Below the pieces are notes generated by a model that made no database searches, was not told where the DNA came from, and saw only the letters and a list, made by a program, of their open reading frames with translations. From positions 806,001-870,000 of the forward strand of contig NZ_CP016776.1 of assembly GCF_002288185.1 (NCBI RefSeq): a stretch of DNA of 64,000 bases, written 5' to 3'. Source of the stretch: Candidatus Planktophila vernalis (GTDB lineage Bacteria; Actinomycetota; Actinomycetes; Nanopelagicales; Nanopelagicaceae). Shown here piece by piece: positions 6,020 through 40,444 of the stretch. Every line of letters begins with the position of its first letter. The first letter of the stretch is position 1. Made by a program: the position numbers and the translations under genes.

Positions 6020-7408
6020 TTATCCGAAACGACGGCTCAGACCGTCAACGATGATGGGTGCCAAAGAACTGACATCTCCTGCGCCAAGAGTGATGATCAC
6101 ATCTTGTGGCTCTGCTGAATCAATAACTGAATCTGTGACCTCAATGAAATTAGGTATGTACTCCCCATGGCTCATTGCATCTGTAATCAAACGGGATGTA
6201 ACACCGGCAATTGGTTTTTCACTTGCTGCATAGACCTCTAGAACAATCGCTCGATCTGCCATATCGAGCACTTTGGCAAACTGGGATGAAAAAGCTTTAG
6301 TTCGTGAATAGCGATGTGGTTGGAAGATAACGATTAAGCGTCCATCACCTGCAAAGCGACGTGCAGCTTTTAATGTCACATCAATCTCTGTTGGGTGATG
6401 TCCATAATCATCTATAACTCGGATTCCATGCACTGTTCCCTTGAGTTCAAAGCGTCGTCCTGTGCCCCTAAAGACAGCCAATCCCGTGAGTAATTCAGGG
6501 GCAGCAAAACCAAGATTTAATCCTGTTGCAAGTACCGCAGCGGCATTAAGTAAGTTGTGATGGCCTGGTACTTGAAGTTCAATGAAACCAACGACTTTAC
6601 CCCGCCAAATTGCACGGGCGCGTGAGCCCATTGCCTCTAACTCAATGGAATCTAATCTCAAATCGCACTCTTCGCCAACTCCATAAGAAATCAACGCACA
6701 CGTTGTAATAGTTGAGGCCAAGGCCTTAGCGCCTTCATCATCTGCGCAGTATGTAAGGAAGCCTTCAGCCTTAATAGTTGCAGCAAAATCTTTAAAGGCT
6801 TGGGCGACGTCGGCTGGAGTTGCAAAGAAGTCAACATGATCATGTTCAACATTTGTCACTATTGCGGCATATGGATGATATTCAATAAATGAGCCATCAG
6901 ATTCATCGGCTTCTGCAACAAAGATTTCACCTGTTCCGCGGTGAGCGTTAGAGCCAGAAGCAGTAATTGTTCCGCCTATTGCAAAAGATGGATCAGCTCC
7001 ACATGCCTGTAATGCAACAGCCATCATCGAAGATGTTGTGGTCTTGCCATGGGTGCCTGCCACAGCAATACTCTTTGATTCAGACATCAATATTGAAAGT
7101 GCGGCAGCGCGTGTAAGAGTCATAAGTTTTAACTCTTGGGCTCGCATAAGTTCTGCGTTAGAAGTTGAAATCGCAGTTGAGTAAACAACTAAATCAGCAC
7201 CATCCACATTAGCGGCGGCATGCGTTGTTGAAATAGTTGCACCGAGTGCCTGCAGAGCTTTAACCACTGATGAATCTTTAGCATCTGAACCACTGACAGT
7301 GATTCCGTGAGAGAGTGAAATACGAGCCAAACCGCTCATACCTGCGCCACCAATGCCAATAAAGTGAACGCGCTTGCCAATCAGAGATTGCAACGTTGGC
7401 TTATTCAT
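6020..7408 (-). CDS. murC: UDP-N-acetylmuramate--L-alanine ligase
   Basis: Adds L-alanine to UDP-MurNAc, the first amino-acid step of peptidoglycan stem synthesis. The 462 residues include the Rossmann start HFIGIGGAGMSGLA, the ATP loop AGTHGKTTTSSM (about residue 116), EADESDGSF, NVEHDHVDFF and the C-terminal DDYGHHPTEI and QPHRYSRT segments. The ATG start overlaps the murG stop by ATGA. It is complete with no odd residues seen. Confidence 0.97.
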   Translation of the reverse strand: MNKPTLQSLIGKRVHFIGIGGAGMSGLARISLSHGITVSGSDAKDSSVVKALQALGATISTTHAAANVDGADLVVYSTAISTSNAELMRAQELKLMTLTRAAALSILMSESKSIAVAGTHGKTTTSSMMAVALQACGADPSFAIGGTITASGSNAHRGTGEIFVAEADESDGSFIEYHPYAAIVTNVEHDHVDFFATPADVAQAFKDFAATIKAEGFLTYCADDEGAKALASTITTCALISYGVGEECDLRLDSIELEAMGSRARAIWRGKVVGFIELQVPGHHNLLNAAAVLATGLNLGFAAPELLTGLAVFRGTGRRFELKGTVHGIRVIDDYGHHPTEIDVTLKAARRFAGDGRLIVIFQPHRYSRTKAFSSQFAKVLDMADRAIVLEVYAASEKPIAGVTSRLITDAMSHGEYIPNFIEVTDSVIDSAEPQDVIITLGAGDVSSLAPIIVDGLSRRFG

Positions 7409-8484
7409 CGAGCCTCCAGTGCATGCTGGCCTAAAGCTGCGATTTTTAGAGCTGCATCTGCATCTAGCGTTGATCCCTCAAGGGGTGCTGAGTTACTTGA
7501 AGCAAGTAGGGCATCAATATGAGTGTGCAAATAGCTGGTTGTGAATTCCTTTTGATCAATAACTTCAGCTCGCCCATCTGCGACTAAACCACGTGCATTG
7601 TGGAACTGTTCTCCGTTTCCAATTGGCAGTGGCACAAAAAGAGCGTAACGGCCAAGGGCCCTAAATTCAGCGCAAGTCACTGCCCCACTGCGCGCAATAA
7701 TCAGGTCAGCAGCTAAATAGGCATCAGCCATCTGGTCCACATATGCCACTGGGCGATAGAGATCAGTAGCTGGTGGCAACACATTTGCACGACCCACTGA
7801 ATGCATCACGGCAATACCTTTGGTTGAAAACATCGGCACGCCTTGCTCTATCACTTTATTTATTGCAACCGATCCTTGTGATCCGCCCATGACGAAAACC
7901 AAAGGTGTAGCAGGACTAAAACCCAAACGAATCTTTGCCTCTGCTCTGGCTTTGTGCCAATCAGCTCCAGCGCTCTTGAGCGCAGCGGCAACATCACTTC
8001 GAAGTGGTAAGCCCGTAATCAAAGCTTTACTAAACATGCCTGCGTTAACTCCATGAGCAACTGCTAGATAAGGGGTGAAGAGTGCGCCTAGTCGATTTGC
8101 CCATCCAGGCTTTGCATTGGCCTCATGAATAATCGTTGGAACGCCGAGAATGCGAGCTGCGATATAGGCAGGTGCACTGACATAACCACCAAAGCCAATG
8201 AGTAAATCTGCACCTTTCAAGAGCGAATGGCAGGCCTTTACTGATGCAACTAAGTCAAAGGGAATATTCAACCAAGAAGGCGAAGGCTTTCTTGAAATTC
8301 TAACCTTTGGAATATTGCTAACGCTAAAGCCTGCAGCAGGAATCAAAGTATTTTCTAAACCTTGCGCAGTTCCTAAAAAGCTAATTTCATCTTTTGGATT
8401 AGCGCTTTGCCACACACGTGCCACAGCCAGCGCTGGTTCAATGTGGCCTGCGGTGCCCCCGCCAGCAAGAACTATCGAAGCCAT
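7405..8484 (-). CDS. murG: UDP-GlcNAc:lipid I N-acetylglucosaminyltransferase MurG
   Basis: GT28 peripheral membrane enzyme that converts lipid I to lipid II on the inner leaflet. The 359 residues begin with the glycine-rich acceptor loop LAGGGTAGHIEPALAVA and contain FGGYVSAPA, IIHEANAKPGWANR, FVMGGSQGSVAIN and the donor-site segment IIARSGAVTCAEF. ATG start inside the end of ftsW (13-bp overlap), so translation is probably coupled. Confidence 0.97.
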   Translation of the reverse strand: MASIVLAGGGTAGHIEPALAVARVWQSANPKDEISFLGTAQGLENTLIPAAGFSVSNIPKVRISRKPSPSWLNIPFDLVASVKACHSLLKGADLLIGFGGYVSAPAYIAARILGVPTIIHEANAKPGWANRLGALFTPYLAVAHGVNAGMFSKALITGLPLRSDVAAALKSAGADWHKARAEAKIRLGFSPATPLVFVMGGSQGSVAINKVIEQGVPMFSTKGIAVMHSVGRANVLPPATDLYRPVAYVDQMADAYLAADLIIARSGAVTCAEFRALGRYALFVPLPIGNGEQFHNARGLVADGRAEVIDQKEFTTSYLHTHIDALLASSNSAPLEGSTLDADAALKIAALGQHALEAR

Positions 8485-33342: not shown

Positions 33343-34419
33343 GTGAGTTCAGCGACTAAGTCAGAGTTACAAGAGACGCGCGATTGCGTAGAGATTGAAC
33401 TCACTCAATTCATGCGTGATCAGAGCGCATACCTGCTTTCAATCTCACCTGAATTACAACCAGTTTCCTCCGCTCTCTCATCTTTTCTTCTTGATAGCGG
33501 TAAGCGATTACGTCCTCTCTTTGCCTATGCTGGAATCAAAAGCGCAGGTGGTTCATTAACGCCCGCAACTACTAAAGCCATCTCTTGCCTTGAACTGCTT
33601 CAAGCGTGCGCACTTATTCATGATGACTTAATGGATGGTTCTGACACACGCCGCGGTAAGCCATCTATTCATCGCCACTTTGAATCTATCCATGTGCAAG
33701 ATGCCTTAGAGGGCTTTGCACCTGCATACGGTTTAGCTTCTGCAGTTTTGCTTGGAGATTTAGCACTTGTCTGGTCAAACCAACTTCTTAATACTTCCGG
33801 GATTTCTGCTCACGAGCTTCGCCGCGTCATGCCAATCTTTGATGAGATGCGCGTTGAGTTAATGGCTGGACAGTTCTTAGATATTCATGAGCAAACACAA
33901 AAGAACACAGATCTTGATCGTTCAATGAAGATTGCTCGCTACAAATCAGGTAAATACACAATTGAGCGACCTCTTCACATGGGAGCATTACTAGCCGCAG
34001 ATGCCTCCCCTGCACTTCTCACCGCTCTCTCCGATTATGGATTACCCCTGGGTGAGGCTTTCCAATTCCGCGATGACCTACTTGGCGTCTTTGGTGATCC
34101 CTCTGTTACAGGAAAACCTGCCGGTGATGACCTGCGTGAAGGAAAGCGCACAGCCCTTATCGCTATGACCGATGCCAAATGCACAGATGCCATGAAGGCC
34201 GAGAGCCGTAAATATTTTGGGAAGAATGATATTGATGACAAAGGTGTGGCTATCTTGCAGGAGATGATTGTTTCAACAGGCGCAAAAGCAGCCCTTGAAA
34301 CTATGATTGATGAATTAACCTCAAAGGCATTAAAAGCTATTGAAAATCCAGCAATTGATATCGCTGGACGAGATTTACTCAATGAGCTAGCCCTAATCGC
34401 CACGAAGCGGAGTATGTAA
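33343..34419 (+). CDS. crtE: Polyprenyl (geranylgeranyl) diphosphate synthase
   Basis: Trans-prenyltransferase that elongates to the C20 precursor of phytoene. The 358 residues contain the first Asp-rich motif HDDLMD (in LIHDDLMDGSDTRRGKPSIH, about residues 93-112) and the second in FQFRDDLLGVFGD, with SGKRLRPLFAYAG and KSGKYTIERPLHMG between. GTG start at 33343 follows a GAGGG about 12 bases upstream. TAAATG junctions join it to crtI and then crtB, so it is the first gene of a crtE-crtI-crtB operon. Confidence 0.9.
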   Translation: MSSATKSELQETRDCVEIELTQFMRDQSAYLLSISPELQPVSSALSSFLLDSGKRLRPLFAYAGIKSAGGSLTPATTKAISCLELLQACALIHDDLMDGSDTRRGKPSIHRHFESIHVQDALEGFAPAYGLASAVLLGDLALVWSNQLLNTSGISAHELRRVMPIFDEMRVELMAGQFLDIHEQTQKNTDLDRSMKIARYKSGKYTIERPLHMGALLAADASPALLTALSDYGLPLGEAFQFRDDLLGVFGDPSVTGKPAGDDLREGKRTALIAMTDAKCTDAMKAESRKYFGKNDIDDKGVAILQEMIVSTGAKAALETMIDELTSKALKAIENPAIDIAGRDLLNELALIATKRSM

Positions 34420-35904
34420 ATGGTTGCCAGAGTTAAAGGCCCCACAGATCACGTTGTAGTTGTGGGCGCAGGCCTTGCTGGATTAAGCGCAGCACTTCGA
34501 CTCGCTGGTGCTGGTCGAAAAGTAACTGTATTAGAGCGCGAAAGTGTTCCTGGTGGGCGAAATGGTTTGCTCAACAAAGATGGCTATGCATTTGATACTG
34601 GACCATCAGTTTTAACTATGCCATCTCTTATCAATGATGCCTTCAACTGCGTTGGCGAAGATATGAAAGATTGGTTGGAGCTCACTCCACTCACACCTCT
34701 CTATCGCGCCTTCTATGCTGATGGCTCACAGTTAGATGTTCATGCAAATACCGGTGAGATGGAAGCAGAGATTGCAAAGCACATCAGTAGCCAAGAAGCT
34801 GCTGGATATCGCAGATACGTAGATTTTGTTACAAAACTCTATAAGTATGAGATGAATGATTTCATCGATAGAAACATAGACAGTCCCCTGAACTTGCTCA
34901 CACCTAACCTTGCCCGCTTAATTGCACTCGGAGGCTTTCGCAGACTCTCTCCTAAAGTAAATCAATTTATGAAAGATCCTCGCCTACAAAAGGTTTATTC
35001 ATTTCAAGCTATGTATGCAGGAGTAAGCCCGCAGCAAGCTCTAGCTATCTACGCAGTCATTGCATACATGGACTCTGTTAATGGAGTTTTCTTTCCTAAG
35101 GGTGGAATGCACGCAGTTCCTCGCGCACTAGCAGCAGCTGCAGAAAAGCATGGAGTGGTCTTTAAATACAACACAACCGTGACAAATGTTGAAGTCAGCA
35201 ATGGCCGTGCAAAAGCTGTTATCACCGAAGCTGGTGAGCGCTATGAGTGCGATGCAGTGATTTTGAATCCAGATCTACCTGTTGCCTACCGCGAGTTACT
35301 CGGCAAATCACCAGTATCAATTAAGCGCCTGAAGTATTCACCTTCTTGTGTGACTCTATTGATTGGTTCAAGTAAGAAGTATGACTTTGCAGCACACCAC
35401 AACATCCACTTTGGTCACTCTTGGGATGGCGTTTTTGATGAACTCATCAAAAAGAAGCAGTTAATGAGTGATCCCAGTATCCTGGTCACCATTCCCACTC
35501 ATGATGATCCGAATTTAGCTCCCCCAGGTAAGCATTCTTATTATGTTTTGTTCCCAACGCCTAACTTAGATAGCAATATCGATTGGACTAAACAAGCCGG
35601 TCCATACCGTGATCAAATGATTAAGACCATTGAAGAGCGCGGCTACACGGGCTTTGGTGATTCCATTGAAACTGAAGTGATGACCACTCCCCTTGATTGG
35701 AAAAATCAAGGGATGGAGATGGGTGCACCTTTTGCTAGCGCACATACATTCTTCCAAACTGGTCCCTTTAGACCACGCAACATGGCACAAGGAATTGAAA
35801 ACGTTGTCTTTGCCGGTTCTGGAACACAACCTGGCGTTGGAGTTCCCATGGTTTTGATCTCTGGACGACTTGCTGCAGAGCGAATTGTGGGACCTGTTAA
35901 GTAA
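34420..35904 (+). CDS. crtI: Phytoene desaturase
   Basis: FAD enzyme that converts phytoene to lycopene by successive desaturations. The 494 residues start VVVGAGLAGLSAALRLAGAG and continue RNGLLNKDGYAFDTGPSVLTMPSL, AIYAVIAYMDSVNGVFFPKGGM and the C-terminal FAGSGTQPGVGVPMVLISGR signature. The ATG directly follows the crtE stop, and its own stop directly precedes crtB. Confidence 0.93.
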   Translation: MVARVKGPTDHVVVVGAGLAGLSAALRLAGAGRKVTVLERESVPGGRNGLLNKDGYAFDTGPSVLTMPSLINDAFNCVGEDMKDWLELTPLTPLYRAFYADGSQLDVHANTGEMEAEIAKHISSQEAAGYRRYVDFVTKLYKYEMNDFIDRNIDSPLNLLTPNLARLIALGGFRRLSPKVNQFMKDPRLQKVYSFQAMYAGVSPQQALAIYAVIAYMDSVNGVFFPKGGMHAVPRALAAAAEKHGVVFKYNTTVTNVEVSNGRAKAVITEAGERYECDAVILNPDLPVAYRELLGKSPVSIKRLKYSPSCVTLLIGSSKKYDFAAHHNIHFGHSWDGVFDELIKKKQLMSDPSILVTIPTHDDPNLAPPGKHSYYVLFPTPNLDSNIDWTKQAGPYRDQMIKTIEERGYTGFGDSIETEVMTTPLDWKNQGMEMGAPFASAHTFFQTGPFRPRNMAQGIENVVFAGSGTQPGVGVPMVLISGRLAAERIVGPVK

Positions 35905-36777
35905 ATGGATGAGCTAGAGGCATCCTATGCCGAGTGCAAAAGATTAAATTCTCTTCACGGCAAAACCTATTACTTAGCCACACTTCTTCTACCTAAAGCT
36001 AAACGCAAATATGTTCACGCCCTTTATGGTTTTGCCCGCTATGCCGATGAAATCGTTGATGATCTTGCATCAACACTGACTGTGCAGGAAAAAGCAGATG
36101 CTTTAGGTGTGTGGGGTGCCAAGATTTTGCAAGATCTCAAAAGCGGCAAAAGTGATGATGCAATCGGACGAGCGCTAATAGACACCGTGAACACATTTGC
36201 AATCCCCCACGAGTACTTTGAAGCATTCTTACATTCCATGACTATGGATTTAACTGTGCAGGAATATCAAACATATGAAGATCTCTTGGAGTATGTCTAT
36301 GGATCAGCTGCCGTTATTGGTCTTGAGATGGTGCCGGTGCTTGGAGTTCTTCAAGACGGTGCCCATGAGTGCGCCGAGAAGCTAGGTATTGCTTTTCAAT
36401 TAGCTAACTTCATCCGCGATGTGGGAGAAGATTTAGATCGTGGCCGTATTTATCTGCCTATAACTGAGCTTGCCGAGCATGGTGTTACACGTGAAATGCT
36501 TGAAGAGCGCGTCCTCACGCCACAAATCATCAGCGCACTTAAGTTTCAAATTGCCCGTGTGCGCCAACTACAACAAGAGGCAACTCCAGGAATTCAAATG
36601 CTTGCAGCATCTAGTCGCCCATGTATTGAGGCAGCAAGTGAGCTCTACTGCGGCATTGTTGATGAGGTAGAAAAGATTGGTTATGACATCTTTAACAAAC
36701 GTGCCAAGACTTCTACTGCGCGCAGATTACGCGTCTTTATTAGCGCTTATTTGAAGCGCCTAGCCGTATCCAATTAG
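35905..36777 (+). CDS. crtB: Phytoene synthase
   Basis: Joins two geranylgeranyl diphosphates into phytoene. The 290 residues include the Asp-rich YADEIVDD (about residues 46-53), MDLTVQEYQTYEDLLEYVYGSA split around the conserved YxxxDLxxY region, and the second Asp motif FQLANFIRDVGEDLDRGRIYLP. Its last 38 bp overlap, tail to tail, the crtYd gene on the other strand. Confidence 0.94.
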   Translation: MDELEASYAECKRLNSLHGKTYYLATLLLPKAKRKYVHALYGFARYADEIVDDLASTLTVQEKADALGVWGAKILQDLKSGKSDDAIGRALIDTVNTFAIPHEYFEAFLHSMTMDLTVQEYQTYEDLLEYVYGSAAVIGLEMVPVLGVLQDGAHECAEKLGIAFQLANFIRDVGEDLDRGRIYLPITELAEHGVTREMLEERVLTPQIISALKFQIARVRQLQQEATPGIQMLAASSRPCIEAASELYCGIVDEVEKIGYDIFNKRAKTSTARRLRVFISAYLKRLAVSN

Positions 36778-37039
36778 TTAAAACGCCAAGCACTAGCGCA
36801 AAACCAAAGAGCAGGTCTTCCACTGGAGCTGATGCTATTCGCCAGCCAATAATGGCATCTGGGCTATACATCACGATATTTCTTGAAGTCAGCCACCAAT
36901 TCGTAAGTAGCTGGAACCCAACAATGATTGCGTATGAAGTCCAAAAGACTCGGCGCCTAAGTAGCTGTGTATTGAATAGATAGAGATCAAAGGAAATAGC
37001 AAAGAGCACTGCAAAGATTGCGATTTGTGTGTAGGTCAT
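36740..37039 (-). CDS. crtYd: Lycopene cyclase subunit CrtYd-like
   Basis: A 99-residue, three-helix membrane subunit. It carries the APVEDLLFGF motif of the second half of heterodimeric lycopene cyclases and the NWWLTSRNIV region. ATG at 37039 overlaps the crtYc stop by ATGA; an in-frame ATG five codons earlier is less likely. With CrtYc it should close one or both ends of lycopene. Ring type (beta or epsilon) cannot be told from sequence. Confidence 0.85.
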   Translation of the reverse strand: MTYTQIAIFAVLFAISFDLYLFNTQLLRRRVFWTSYAIIVGFQLLTNWWLTSRNIVMYSPDAIIGWRIASAPVEDLLFGFALVLGVLTNWIRLGASNKR

Positions 37040-37362
37040 TTGTAGACCTGCCAATGTTTCTTGACTGTGCGCACAGCTTCAATAGTCATGAGCGCTGCAA
37101 TAGGAACAACGATGAAGAACAAATACTCTTCCAGCGGTATACCGAATGGACCAAAAATGCCAAGGATCTGAGCTTTATCAAAATACCAATGCCCACTTGC
37201 AATCGCGTATTTGTCCCACGCGATGAATAGAAAAGCTACTGGAGCAATTGCAAGCACTACTCGCTTAAACTGCTTGAGAACCCCAACCTTTAAAAACACT
37301 TCTAGCCAGAATGAGCCAACGACGGTGAAAACAATCATGGCTAGGTATCCATACTTTTGCAC
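37036..37362 (-). CDS. crtYc: Lycopene cyclase subunit CrtYc-like
   Basis: A 108-residue, three-helix membrane subunit with WDKYAIASGHWYFDKAQILG and the IPLEEYLFFIVVP motif typical of CrtYc. The GTG start at 37362 has no clear ribosome site; a later in-frame ATG at 37338 would cut the first helix. It is divergent from the riboswitch-controlled pnuT unit, so promoters for both must lie within about 25 bp between 37362 and the aptamer or overlap crtYc. Confidence 0.85.
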   Translation of the reverse strand: MQKYGYLAMIVFTVVGSFWLEVFLKVGVLKQFKRVVLAIAPVAFLFIAWDKYAIASGHWYFDKAQILGIFGPFGIPLEEYLFFIVVPIAALMTIEAVRTVKKHWQVYK

Positions 37363-37380
37363 GAGATAACGCTACTCTAA

Positions 37381-37465
37381 TAACCACGGGAGCCGCATGC
37401 GGCTGAGAGGGTTTGAAATTCAAACCGACCGATTGACCCGTCCGGTAATGCGGACGTGGAAAGGA
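37381..37465 (+). promoter_or_regulatory. Thiamine pyrophosphate (TPP) riboswitch
   Basis: Clear THI-box aptamer. P1 pairs CCAC (37384-37387) with GTGG (37456-37459). The GGGAGCC start, CTGAGAGG, a GGTTTGAAATTCAAACC hairpin arm, the pyrophosphate-sensing GACCCG region and CCGGTAATGCGG follow in order. The ribosome site AAAGGA (37460-37465) begins immediately after P1 and the ATG is at 37470, so there is no room for a terminator. Control is most likely translational: TPP binding should lower translation of pnuT and the kinase. Confidence 0.93.
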
Positions 37466-37469
37466 AACT

Positions 37470-38045
37470 ATGTCATTCACCCTTTTTACAGCGTGGGGCT
37501 ATGAAGTCTCGACTCTTGAATTCATTGCAGCAATTACTTCCATTACTGGCGTCTGGCTTGGCACAACTGGAAAGCGCATCACTTGGCCTTGGTGGGCATT
37601 GAGCAGTGCTCTCTATATGGTCTTCTTTTATCAAGTTGATCTCTTTGCAAGTGCAGCTCTGCAAATAGTTTTCATTGTTGCCGCCATTTGGGGCTGGCGT
37701 GATTGGGCACCAACTGGTGCAACCCCTGGCTATCTAAACAACCGTCATCGCTTATTCATTGGCGCAGGAACCTTGATTGCTGTCTCTGTACTTTCTCCCC
37801 TGCTCTCGCGCGCAGGTGCTGCAGCAACATGGTCTGATGCATTTTTACTTGTTGGCTCACTTGCTGCGCAGATTCTTATGGTTTACCAAAAAGTTGAAGC
37901 GTGGATGCTCTGGCTCATCATTGACTTAGCCGGAACGATTCAATACGCCTATTTGGGTTATTGGTTTACTGCCGCGCTATACGCACTCTTCACACTCGTT
38001 GCGATAGTTGGCTGGAAGCGTTGGTATGTCCTTAATCGCAATTGA
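37470..38045 (+). CDS. pnuT: PnuC-family thiamine transporter (PnuT type)
   Basis: A membrane protein of 191 residues with about seven helices, of the PnuC family (FIAAITSITGVWLGTTGKRITWP, ALYMVFFYQVDLFASAALQ, then a C-terminal QKVEAWMLWLIID and YLGYWFTAALYALF). PnuC transports nicotinamide riboside, but members under TPP riboswitches are assigned to thiamine (PnuT), and here the aptamer abuts the start codon. PnuT works by facilitated diffusion and needs intracellular phosphorylation to trap its substrate, which fits the overlapping kinase gene. Confidence 0.88.
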   Translation: MSFTLFTAWGYEVSTLEFIAAITSITGVWLGTTGKRITWPWWALSSALYMVFFYQVDLFASAALQIVFIVAAIWGWRDWAPTGATPGYLNNRHRLFIGAGTLIAVSVLSPLLSRAGAAATWSDAFLLVGSLAAQILMVYQKVEAWMLWLIIDLAGTIQYAYLGYWFTAALYALFTLVAIVGWKRWYVLNRN

Positions 38046-38523
38046 TGGCAGAGCAGGAGCTGGTAAAACAACGTTAGCTGCCAGCTTCTTTGAAGAACTA
38101 TCTGCCGATAAACCCGTCGCGGTTATCCATATGGATGATCTCTATGACGGCTGGGAAAATGCTCTGAGTGAGCGCCTCACTCAAACTTTAGAGTCAATTG
38201 TGAAGTCACATCAGGACAAGGTTGCTTTTGAAATAGATATCTTCAACTGGCAATCGATGTCCTTTGATTCAAAGCGAGTGATACATCCTGTTGATATCTT
38301 GATTTTAGAAGGCGTAGGAGCGGGGCAAAAAGTAGTACGTGATGCTGGTGCAACCTTGTATTGGCTAGATATTGATGCCGAAGTTGGAATACAAAGGGTT
38401 TTGAATCGAGATGGCAACCAGATTGCATCGCAGATGAAGCAGTGGCAGATTGCTCAAGAAATTCATTTTTTGCGAGATAAGACACGCGAAAACGCGGAAC
38501 ACATTCAAAGCTCACCAGCTTAA
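38026..38523 (+). CDS. Small P-loop kinase (uridine kinase-like), candidate thiamine-salvage kinase
   Basis: A 165-residue P-loop protein: Walker A GRAGAGKTTLA (about residues 7-17), VIHMDDLYDGWE, FNWQSMSFD, Walker B ILILEGVGAG and a late RDKTRENA segment. This is the uridine kinase/phosphoribulokinase-like fold. I choose ATG at 38026, giving a 20-bp overlap with pnuT. Translation coupling puts it under the same TPP riboswitch, so I infer a role in phosphorylating thiamine or a precursor; direct substrate evidence is absent. Alternative: a nucleoside kinase or an unrelated passenger. Confidence 0.75.
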   Translation: MSLIAIDGRAGAGKTTLAASFFEELSADKPVAVIHMDDLYDGWENALSERLTQTLESIVKSHQDKVAFEIDIFNWQSMSFDSKRVIHPVDILILEGVGAGQKVVRDAGATLYWLDIDAEVGIQRVLNRDGNQIASQMKQWQIAQEIHFLRDKTRENAEHIQSSPA

Positions 38524-38542: not shown

Positions 38543-40444
38543 ATGTCAGATCTATCGGGTGAGCTCATTGATGGGCGTTATCAACTCACTCGCCAGGTTG
38601 CCAATGGTGGAATGGCCAGCGTCTATGAGGCTATCGATACCCGCTTAGATCGAAAAGTTGCAGTAAAGATTATGCATCCGCATTTAGCCCAAGATGAAGC
38701 TTTCGTTAATCGCTTCATTAGAGAAGCTAAAGCCGCAGCCGCACTCTCACATCCCAACATCGTTGCTGTTCAAGATCAAGGGTGGAATCAAAACGGAGTT
38801 CCGGCTGTCTTTATTGTTATGGAGTTAATCGAAGGTCACACGCTTCGTGAATACTTAAATGAGCGTGGCAGGTTTGAAATTAAAGATGCCATGAACTACC
38901 TCACTCCCATTCTTAGCGCACTTGCTGCAGCCCATGATTTAGGAATTGTTCACCGCGACATGAAGCCTGAAAACATTTTGATTTCAAAAGAAGGTCGCGT
39001 AAAGATCGCAGATTTCGGTTTAGCGCGCGGAGAACTCATTGGTTCAACTATGACGGCTGAATCAAGTGTTATCTTGGGTTCAGTTTCATACCTTTCTCCT
39101 GAGCAAGTCCAGCGCGGTGTTGCAGATTCTAGAAGTGATGTCTATGCAGTTGGCATCGTGGCATTTGAAATGCTGACAGGTGAAAAACCATTCCTAGGCG
39201 AGACACCTATTCAGATCGCCTATATGCATGTGAATCAAGAGATTCCTTCCCTTCGCTCTAAGCGCAAAGAGATTCCAGAGGCTCTGGATACATTGATTTT
39301 GCAAGCAACTAACCGTGATCCAGATAAGCGCCCCCGCACAGCAGGTGAATTCCTTAAAGCGCTGGAATCTATTCAAAATGAAATTGACCCAAAGACAAAT
39401 CAGATGAAGTTAGCTCTTGATCTTCCCGTGGAGCCTATTAAGGAAAAGCCACGAGGAAAGATGAAGAAGCAGGTAGAGGAAGAAAAAGAAGAGAGCATTG
39501 AGATTAAAGAGACAACTAAAGAGATTAGAGCTGCCAAGGAAGAGAAAAAGAAGGCGAGCAAGCGTGTTCGCCGTAACCGCAAAGTTGCCATCATTTTGGC
39601 TATCGCACTTGGTATTGGTGGTTGGTACACATTGGTGGGGCCTGGTTCGCGCGTAGTTGTTCCATCGGTAGTTGGTGGAACATATGAGGAAGCAGTTTCT
39701 ACTCTTACCCCTCTTGGTCTAACAACAGTTATTTTAGAAAAGCGCTTTGATGAAGATATTGCCAAGGGTGCAATCATTGAAACTGATCCCCCAGGTGGTG
39801 GACGTGTTTCATCTGGTGGGCAGGTCAAGTTAATCCTTTCAAAGGGCCCAGAGCGATACATCATCCCGCCAGTTACAGGACTTACTCCTGAGGCTGCCAC
39901 CACTGCCCTCGAGAAATTCCCATTAATAGTTGGCGCAAATACCGAAGTCTTTAACACAGAGATTCCTAAAGGTTTTGTGATTTCTACATCCCCTGCATCT
40001 GGCACACAAGTTAAACGTGACACTCCAGTTTCACTAGTTATAAGCAAGGGTGTTGAGACGGTGGCACTTGTTTCTTATTCCGGTAAGAGTGGTGAACAAG
40101 CACTTAACGAATTAAATGATTTGGGATTTAATGTTGAATCAACCTATGCCTTTAATGAAAAGGTTTTATCGGGAGTGGTTATTTCTCAAAGCCCAACCGG
40201 TGTGGAAGTTGCACCGAAGGGTTCAACTGTATCTCTGGTTATTTCTAAGGGCTCACAGTATGTCTTTATCCCTAACGTCTTTTCACTTGATCAACTCAAG
40301 GCAACTCAAGCGTTGCAAGACCTGCAGCTCAAGGTAGTAGTGAAGAAATTAGGAACTAAGAAGGTCAAGAAGGTTACAAATATCTCTCCTAAGGTGGGTA
40401 GCAAAGTTAAACGTGGCAGTACGGTCACAATTACCGTAGGGTAA
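38543..40444 (+). CDS. PASTA-domain Ser/Thr protein kinase
   Basis: Membrane kinase of 633 residues. The kinase domain spans about residues 10-275, with VANGGMASVYEAID, the catalytic loop IVHRDMKPENILI and IADFGLARGE. Next comes a charged juxtamembrane linker rich in Lys and Glu, one helix (about 345-366) and four extracellular PASTA repeats to the end, the last very basic. Start is ATG at 38543; the upstream frame lies inside the previous gene. PASTA repeats bind muropeptides or lipid II in relatives. A kinase between a prenyl synthase and class II aroG recalls pknL of mycobacteria. Confidence 0.92.
   Translation: MSDLSGELIDGRYQLTRQVANGGMASVYEAIDTRLDRKVAVKIMHPHLAQDEAFVNRFIREAKAAAALSHPNIVAVQDQGWNQNGVPAVFIVMELIEGHTLREYLNERGRFEIKDAMNYLTPILSALAAAHDLGIVHRDMKPENILISKEGRVKIADFGLARGELIGSTMTAESSVILGSVSYLSPEQVQRGVADSRSDVYAVGIVAFEMLTGEKPFLGETPIQIAYMHVNQEIPSLRSKRKEIPEALDTLILQATNRDPDKRPRTAGEFLKALESIQNEIDPKTNQMKLALDLPVEPIKEKPRGKMKKQVEEEKEESIEIKETTKEIRAAKEEKKKASKRVRRNRKVAIILAIALGIGGWYTLVGPGSRVVVPSVVGGTYEEAVSTLTPLGLTTVILEKRFDEDIAKGAIIETDPPGGGRVSSGGQVKLILSKGPERYIIPPVTGLTPEAATTALEKFPLIVGANTEVFNTEIPKGFVISTSPASGTQVKRDTPVSLVISKGVETVALVSYSGKSGEQALNELNDLGFNVESTYAFNEKVLSGVVISQSPTGVEVAPKGSTVSLVISKGSQYVFIPNVFSLDQLKATQALQDLQLKVVVKKLGTKKVKKVTNISPKVGSKVKRGSTVTITVG

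Follow-up and report, generated by a model that had tools for sequence, protein, structure and literature searches.

The stretch of DNA analysed here (the window; 64,000 nucleotides, bases 806001-870000 of a single-contig, 1.36 Mb genome that is 99.95% complete) carries a compact plus-strand unit made up of a THI-type aptamer, a transporter gene (pnuT) and a gene for a P-loop kinase. Judging by its gene content and its fit to published descriptions, the organism appears to belong to the freshwater acI Actinobacteria. The aptamer core spans 37384-37459, and a Shine-Dalgarno-like AAAGGA (37460-37465) lies directly 3' of its last paired base (37459), in agreement with a preliminary description in which the aptamer abuts the ribosome site of pnuT. 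The pnuT gene (37470-38045) encodes a Pnu-type transporter of 191 amino acids, and the gene for the kinase, a candidate thiamine kinase of 165 amino acids (38026-38523), starts inside it, so that the 20 bp overlap described earlier is borne out by the coordinates (38026 versus 38045). A Ser/Thr kinase gene, PknB/PASTA-like by eye (38543-40444, plus strand), begins 19 bp downstream of the candidate kinase and is possibly part of the same transcript. Between 37200 and 38700 no sigma-70-like promoter site was observed, against 2.1 expected. Directly upstream of the THI element lies a carotenoid cluster (33343-37362). By eye, its genes encode a polyprenyl synthase, a phytoene desaturase and a phytoene synthase; the two halves of a lycopene cyclase (PF18916 and TIGR03462) are encoded on the minus strand.

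Parts of this arrangement are known already. Four acI strains have been described as thiamine auxotrophs in which "nearly all" thiamine enzymes are missing, and a pnuC candidate that a THI element precedes in acI was interpreted as PnuT (Kang et al. 2017, PMC5301498, as excerpted). The transporter and its THI element are therefore not new; the passages of that account dealing with pnuT and the THI element in acI make no mention of the downstream kinase.

An Rfam scan of the window at the gathering threshold returned no match, and the THI element appears only at a lower threshold: RF00059 scores 45.7 bits at 37376-37479 (E = 8.8e-8, 601 bases searched), short of the gathering score of 54.3, and this is the sole RF00059 match in the genome. 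The element is nevertheless more than a chance similarity, since the same RNA precedes pnuT at all 32 congeneric loci with readable upstream DNA (among them those of G001, G006, G012, G014 and G036, all overlooked by the Rfam search) and shows covariation. Like the TPP riboswitch, it retains P2, P3, the pyrimidine-sensor junction J3-2 (UGAGA) and the UAAU of L5, and it stands directly before a thiamine-type transporter gene. Its CUGAGA (37403-37408), whose role we take from the excerpted text of PMC3764141, is present in all 32 rows of the congeneric alignment, and L5 is equally invariant. According to the same excerpts, J3-2 (U39-A43), U59, A80, G60, C77 and G78 are highly conserved in TPP aptamers, and the pyrophosphate sensor helix includes P4.

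It is in this second half of the binding site that the window element departs from RF00059. The J4-5 pyrophosphate-sensor loop (G60, C77 and G78, with U59 and A80 beside it) is absent: both AU positions of the J4-5 consensus are missing, U is found at the place of U59 in none of the 32 congeneric rows, and the G found at the place of G60 in 24 of them is paired. The internal loop has lost two bases and its remainder is paired, so that the P4-P5 arm (37437-37459), which an internal loop interrupts in canonical aptamers, is continuous save for one bulge (U37457). Among 30 distinct rows, the inner replacement pair is GC in 12, GU in 10 and AU in 8, and the outer one is CG in 18, GC in 7, AU in 2 and unpaired in 3. 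Across the whole aptamer structure, 99.0% of the cells pair and eight pairs have changed on both sides; neither value was reached by any of 500 shuffles, which ignore kinship. Of the five measures, one did no better than the shuffles: further pair types numbered 13, a value reached in 364 of the 500. Sliding the pairing partners abolished the covariation signal. RNAalifold, unprompted, recovered the same P4-P5 stem and predicted no P1, a further difference from RF00059. We had considered that the weak RF00059 score reflects decay, and rejected this reading given the compensatory pairs that replace the loop.

Canonical and variant aptamers coexist among these bacteria, and they are sorted by the gene that follows. 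RF00059 matched 27 of 37 same-genus genomes, none above the cut-off. Of 201 genomes sampled from the order, 188 gave a match to a covariance model built on the variant RNA (R1); all of the R1-matched genomes listed belong to the same genus or the same family, and part of the weak R1 matches turned out to be canonical aptamers. In a panel of 37 genomes, RF00059 gave 31 matches, of which 16 were variant and 15 canonical in shape: every variant match precedes pnuT, whereas the canonical-shape matches all precede other thiamine genes and none precedes pnuT. None of the 16 variant matches attains the gathering score, which means that annotation with Rfam defaults passes over them. Nine genomes of this panel lacked any RF00059 match. 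Six of them carry R1-type RNA (G014, G036, G061, G075, G203 and G217, the last as a cut piece), the contig of G139 ends in pnuT, and neither R1-type RNA nor pnuT was seen in G189 and G211. The lengths of the arms separate the two forms as well. Counted outward from L5, uninterrupted pairs number five to eight at 81 of 82 pnuT-linked loci and four at the other (at least two of the 82, L221/L133 and L223/L136, duplicate another contig, judging by length), compared with three or four at all 18 canonical loci of the family; these two sets were chosen by hand, and the RF00059 count over 37 genomes is less selected. In other Actinobacteria the number is four in 19 of 21 aptamers; the other two, unreadable for the automated count, look canonical by eye.

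Some aptamers depart from the canonical form in other ways. In six otherwise canonical THI aptamers (L178, L179, L059, L061, L067 and L070) the J4-5 strand is one base shorter (CCUGUCCGG), possibly representing another sub-variant. The aptamer before a thiB-like gene in G142 (L263) is degenerate (38.5 bits), has lost the CG at 77-78 and is not paired in the manner of the pnuT variants; it is perhaps decaying. Among papers on variant or altered TPP riboswitches in the openly available literature, no title or abstract opening reports the pnuT-linked variant.

These features bear on what the riboswitch senses. The preliminary description had a TPP aptamer beside pnuT, with pnuT and the kinase probably under TPP control. 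A THI-type aptamer is indeed present, although as a variant rather than a canonical TPP aptamer, and control by TPP cannot be assumed now that the pyrophosphate-sensing loop is seen to be gone. With that loop turned into paired bases, the variant may, going by its sequence, read thiamine or TMP rather than TPP; these two ligands leave one half of the usual two-part site unoccupied (PMC4775224, in excerpt). In its full form, this proposal would have the pre-pnuT aptamers of the order respond to thiamine in its unphosphorylated form (or to TMP) and control a P-loop thiamine kinase that closes the gap in B1 salvage, and we advance it tentatively, as a possibility that falls well short of probable. 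To the alternative that TPP is still bound through a rearranged pocket, the altered loop entailing no change of ligand, we give slightly less than even weight. The pyrimidine sensor and L5 are conserved, TPP remains the end product of the pathway, and the CG at 77-78, which 17 of the family's 18 canonical loci and all 19 readable canonical loci outside it possess, persists together in 22 of the 82 variant loci, paired as it is in the window. Against retention of TPP, the loop gave way to compensatory pairs and not to random drift, and the same family keeps canonical loops before other genes. If the ligand has changed, a THI aptamer with its pyrimidine pocket and without its pyrophosphate pocket would illustrate how a riboswitch class changes ligand, and the change would be directly testable, because both aptamer forms occur within a single family of bacteria, divided according to the gene that follows.

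The assignment of the transporter to its family is clear (PF04973, 126.4 bits against a cut-off of 27.3). Members of the PnuT family work by facilitated diffusion. A profile search found PnuC (4qtn, E = 1.8e-11) as the only solved relative, and thiamine as the substrate is suggested by the THI-type aptamer and by the absence of other routes found. A strong PnuT match is present in 33 of 37 same-genus genomes (G009, G016, G019 and G029 are without one). Pairing of a Pnu-type carrier with a phosphorylating enzyme has precedents: PnuC pairs with nicotinamide riboside kinase, which resembles our unit in joining a Pnu-type facilitator to a P-loop trapping kinase and differs in its riboswitch and probably in its substrate. 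In Bacteroides, pnuT is joined by tnr3, whose product we take to be a pyrophosphokinase. As excerpted, PMC5613172 describes these pnuT-tnr3 operons as associated with a TPP riboswitch, pnuT being followed by a gene for thiamine phosphorylation as in our unit; there the partner is tnr3, termed thiamine pyrophosphorylase, whereas here it is a P-loop kinase, and ThiL is encoded elsewhere. Second, distant Pnu-type paralogs (24-28% identity) occur in some congeners (G010, G011, G013, G016, G021, G023, G024, G027 and G030) and are possibly the riboflavin-type PnuX of PMC5301498, as excerpted.

The kinase belongs to the phosphoribulokinase/uridine kinase family (PF00485, 31.8 bits, cut-off 22) and lies far below the cut-off for uridine kinase proper (TIGR00235, 39.7 versus 220.3 bits). 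Its best NCBIfam match, spanning nearly the whole protein, is PRK06547 (NF005115, hypothetical protein), a family that carries no assigned function and whose cut-off the kinase does not reach (83.3 versus 173 bits). An AF2 model built on 24 rows has a mean pLDDT of 95.9 and matches human UCK2 best (Z 18.8, rmsd 2.3 Å over 163 residues), followed by pantothenate kinases, phosphoribulokinases and NRK1 (Z 12.1); the modelled fold is uridine-cytidine kinase-like. Eleven residues are invariant in the 33 same-genus kinases: K14 of Walker A, D37, Y40, G42, W43, W75, E95, W113, R124, R128 and W140. Position 93 of Thermus thermophilus UCK (His/Tyr) is presumably the residue that reads the nucleobase. 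The site aligned with this Tyr93 holds Met in the window kinase, and Tyr or His occurs there in one of the 33 same-genus rows and one of six outside.

What the kinase might phosphorylate is suggested by the gaps in the pathway around it. The preliminary description saw no classical thiamine pyrophosphokinase (TPK) in the window, and for model TIGR01378 this holds genome-wide, with no match in the window genome or in any of the 37 same-genus genomes, although 7 of 14 control genomes match. None of 60 genomes of a class sample passes the TIGR01378 cut-off (12 of 23 other-family genomes have partial matches below it), so the absence of TPK is not peculiar to the genus. The wider genome search that had been proposed turned up ThiL, whereas TPK and ThiE gave no match: ThiL lies at C1:513617-514411 (207 bits, above cut-off) and is above cut-off in 30 of 37 same-genus genomes, none of the other seven being more than 92% complete; this count covers the genus, whereas that for TPK covers the class sample. 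ThiE is above cut-off in 6 of 45 family genomes. With ThiL but neither TPK nor ThiE, imported thiamine must first become TMP, and thiamine monophosphate should therefore be the product of the kinase. Escherichia coli uses such a route, ThiK and then ThiL (PMC12632268, in excerpt), by which ThiL without TPK implies a thiamine kinase. In the openly available literature, no title or abstract opening reports such a kinase beside PnuT or, in Actinobacteria, alongside ThiL.

Our data suggest that the unit is probably the thiamine-salvage operon of a thiamine auxotroph and that the P-loop kinase is its missing thiamine kinase, converting thiamine to TMP. Thiamine would enter through PnuT by facilitated diffusion, the overlapping kinase would phosphorylate it to TMP and thereby trap it, and ThiL would form TPP from the TMP, while the THI-type aptamer next to the ribosome site would control translation of at least pnuT and the kinase. 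We infer the substrates of PnuT and the kinase, the kinase product, the aptamer ligand and the mode of control, the thiamine kinase activity itself following from the operon, the pathway gap and the phylogenetic profile. Gene order, the gaps in the pathway and the presence/absence profiles all lend support to the earlier proposal of a thiamine-salvage kinase with a uridine-kinase fold, whose activity is that of a candidate.

The distribution of the kinase is consistent with this role. Within the genus it occurs in 34 of 37 genomes, and at all 33 congeneric loci where both genes are readable it lies behind pnuT on the same strand, its start codon (ATG or GTG) lying 17-35 nt ahead of where pnuT ends. 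The conservation of the pair that the preliminary description had asked about is accordingly complete at these 33 loci, with the THI RNA upstream at all 32 that can be read. Across a 40-genome family panel, in which other genera and misses were chosen from the R1 results and not at random, 34 genomes have a full-length kinase. Twenty-four of these have pnuT, adjacent in 23 and at the end of another contig in G203. The remaining ten (G065, G100, G113, G130, G134, G142, G158, G163, G173 and G179) carry the kinase in the same place before pknB without pnuT, and all ten have a canonical-shape THI aptamer before a thiamine import gene: nine are thiB-like (the six tested all pass TIGR01254; those of G065, G142 and G173 were judged by eye) and one encodes a PF09819 permease, which we take to be YkoE. 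Six genomes lack a full-length kinase, namely three of g31, one of g38, G189 (79% complete) and G211 (73% complete). The g31 and g38 genomes are all ThiE-positive and have thiO behind a THI aptamer (G091 tested, the rest by eye); two of the three g31 genomes were also judged to have a CytX-like gene (205 bits, below the cut-off of 310). No PnuT-, ThiB- or YkoE-type gene was found in any of the six as seen via THI aptamers, the sole means by which importers were sought there.

The resulting association of kinase with importer (34/0 versus 0/6) gives a Fisher p of 2.6e-7, of 1.9e-5 for genomes at least 85% complete and of 0.008 with one row per genus, all of these ignoring kinship; among complete genomes the kinase is absent from two lineages (g31 and g38), so few independent events underlie these values. 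The kinase tracks thiamine import, not PnuT alone. An earlier working view, in which the kinase occurs with pnuT alone, was rejected on finding it also without pnuT, and "thiamine-import partner" took its place. A tree of 87 kinases made by a quick method shows at least eight changes of pnuT linkage, three of them forced by starred branches; L275 and L241 sit on very long branches and their placement is unsure.

The pnuT-free loci also speak for the strongest rival to this reading of the kinase, which holds that the kinase is a general nucleoside-type enzyme, or a partner of pknB, and that pnuT was merely inserted upstream. We regard it as unlikely, though it accounts for several observations: the uridine-kinase fold, the ten kinases at the pknB locus without pnuT, and the adjacency of pknB at all 32 family loci checked. 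It is also favored by relatives elsewhere with no visible link to thiamine, a judgement made partly by eye. Of 23 genomes from other families, 6 carry the kinase; the libraries searched assign the wider protein family no function, and no thiamine link was seen beyond the order. Outside the family neither pnuT nor a THI-like core was seen at 17 of at least 23 named kinase loci, whose flanks are at most 4 kb and shorter in several. ORFs inspected by eye in the six other-family genomes included no thiamine gene in reach of the kinase; a distant Pnu-type gene about 9 kb away in G054 and a THI aptamer about 24 kb away in G038 were not counted as linkage. The preliminary description had named relatives with no link to pnuT or TPP as evidence that would tell against its proposal, and such relatives do in part exist. 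The kinase is not specific to PnuT, as the ten pnuT-free family genomes and the outside relatives without thiamine neighbors show, but the cases within the family still track thiamine import. Against this rival, a THI aptamer precedes the thiB- or ykoE-type gene in all ten pnuT-free genomes, and the nucleobase-reading His/Tyr is not kept. Moreover, a Nanopelagicales MAG (L228) keeps the variant aptamer, pnuT and the kinase together with no pknB match and another gene downstream (L227, with a similar neighborhood, has the kinase without pnuT); that aptamer, pnuT and kinase stay linked in two different contexts speaks against positional inertia as the sole cause.

Outside the family, one relative of the kinase has an unusual architecture. 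On the minus strand of L109 (G038, 6051-8159), a single reading frame joins the kinase domain to a long C-terminal region resembling, by eye, aminodeoxychorismate/anthranilate synthase, with a low-molecular-weight phosphatase-like gene upstream.

A second rival assigns the thiamine kinase step to a ThiK-like enzyme encoded elsewhere and gives the P-loop kinase some other task. ThiK (YcfN), which we take to have the APH/choline-kinase fold, would share with our candidate the reaction from thiamine to TMP upstream of ThiL and differ from it in fold. The window genome has four matches to PF01636, and some match above cut-off was present in all 12 genomes checked. The protein L284 of this genome (C1:1343289-1344263 of G000) is choline-kinase-like (83.8 bits for choline kinase) and weakly similar both to ThiK (ycfN_thiK, 61.2 bits) and to a guanitoxin-pathway kinase model. 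The three proteins tested nevertheless fall far below the ThiK cut-off of 299 (29.3, 15.3 and 61.2 bits), and L219 adjoins a gene that by eye is acyl-CoA dehydrogenase-like. In the family genomes G060 and G080, both 99% complete and equipped with pnuT and the kinase, PF01636 is represented solely by one short fragment each (18.7 and 19.5 bits, or 27.1 and 35.3 with neighbors) in frames of more than 500 amino acids. On this evidence we consider the second rival improbable. Least credible of all, to the point of being very improbable, is that PnuT and the kinase serve to take up and trap a different ring vitamin such as nicotinamide riboside, as PnuC does with NRK: PnuC is the only solved relative of the transporter, NRK1 is structurally related to the kinase and the aptamer is altered, but that aptamer is of THI type with an intact pyrimidine sensor, relatives without pnuT carry thiB- or ykoE-type genes instead, and no further THI-linked importer was found in the ThiE-negative window genome.

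If the thiamine-salvage reading is right, a thiamine kinase of the uridine-kinase fold fills the gap between import and ThiL, and it would constitute an alternative both to ThiK and to thiamine pyrophosphokinase, in lake bacteria that are seemingly very abundant and unable to make vitamin B1. The unit may reach further downstream, too: the pknB gene, whose PASTA-like repeats were recognized by eye, was matched at 79 of the 82 aptamer loci, and vitamin-dependent control of this cell-envelope kinase is conceivable.
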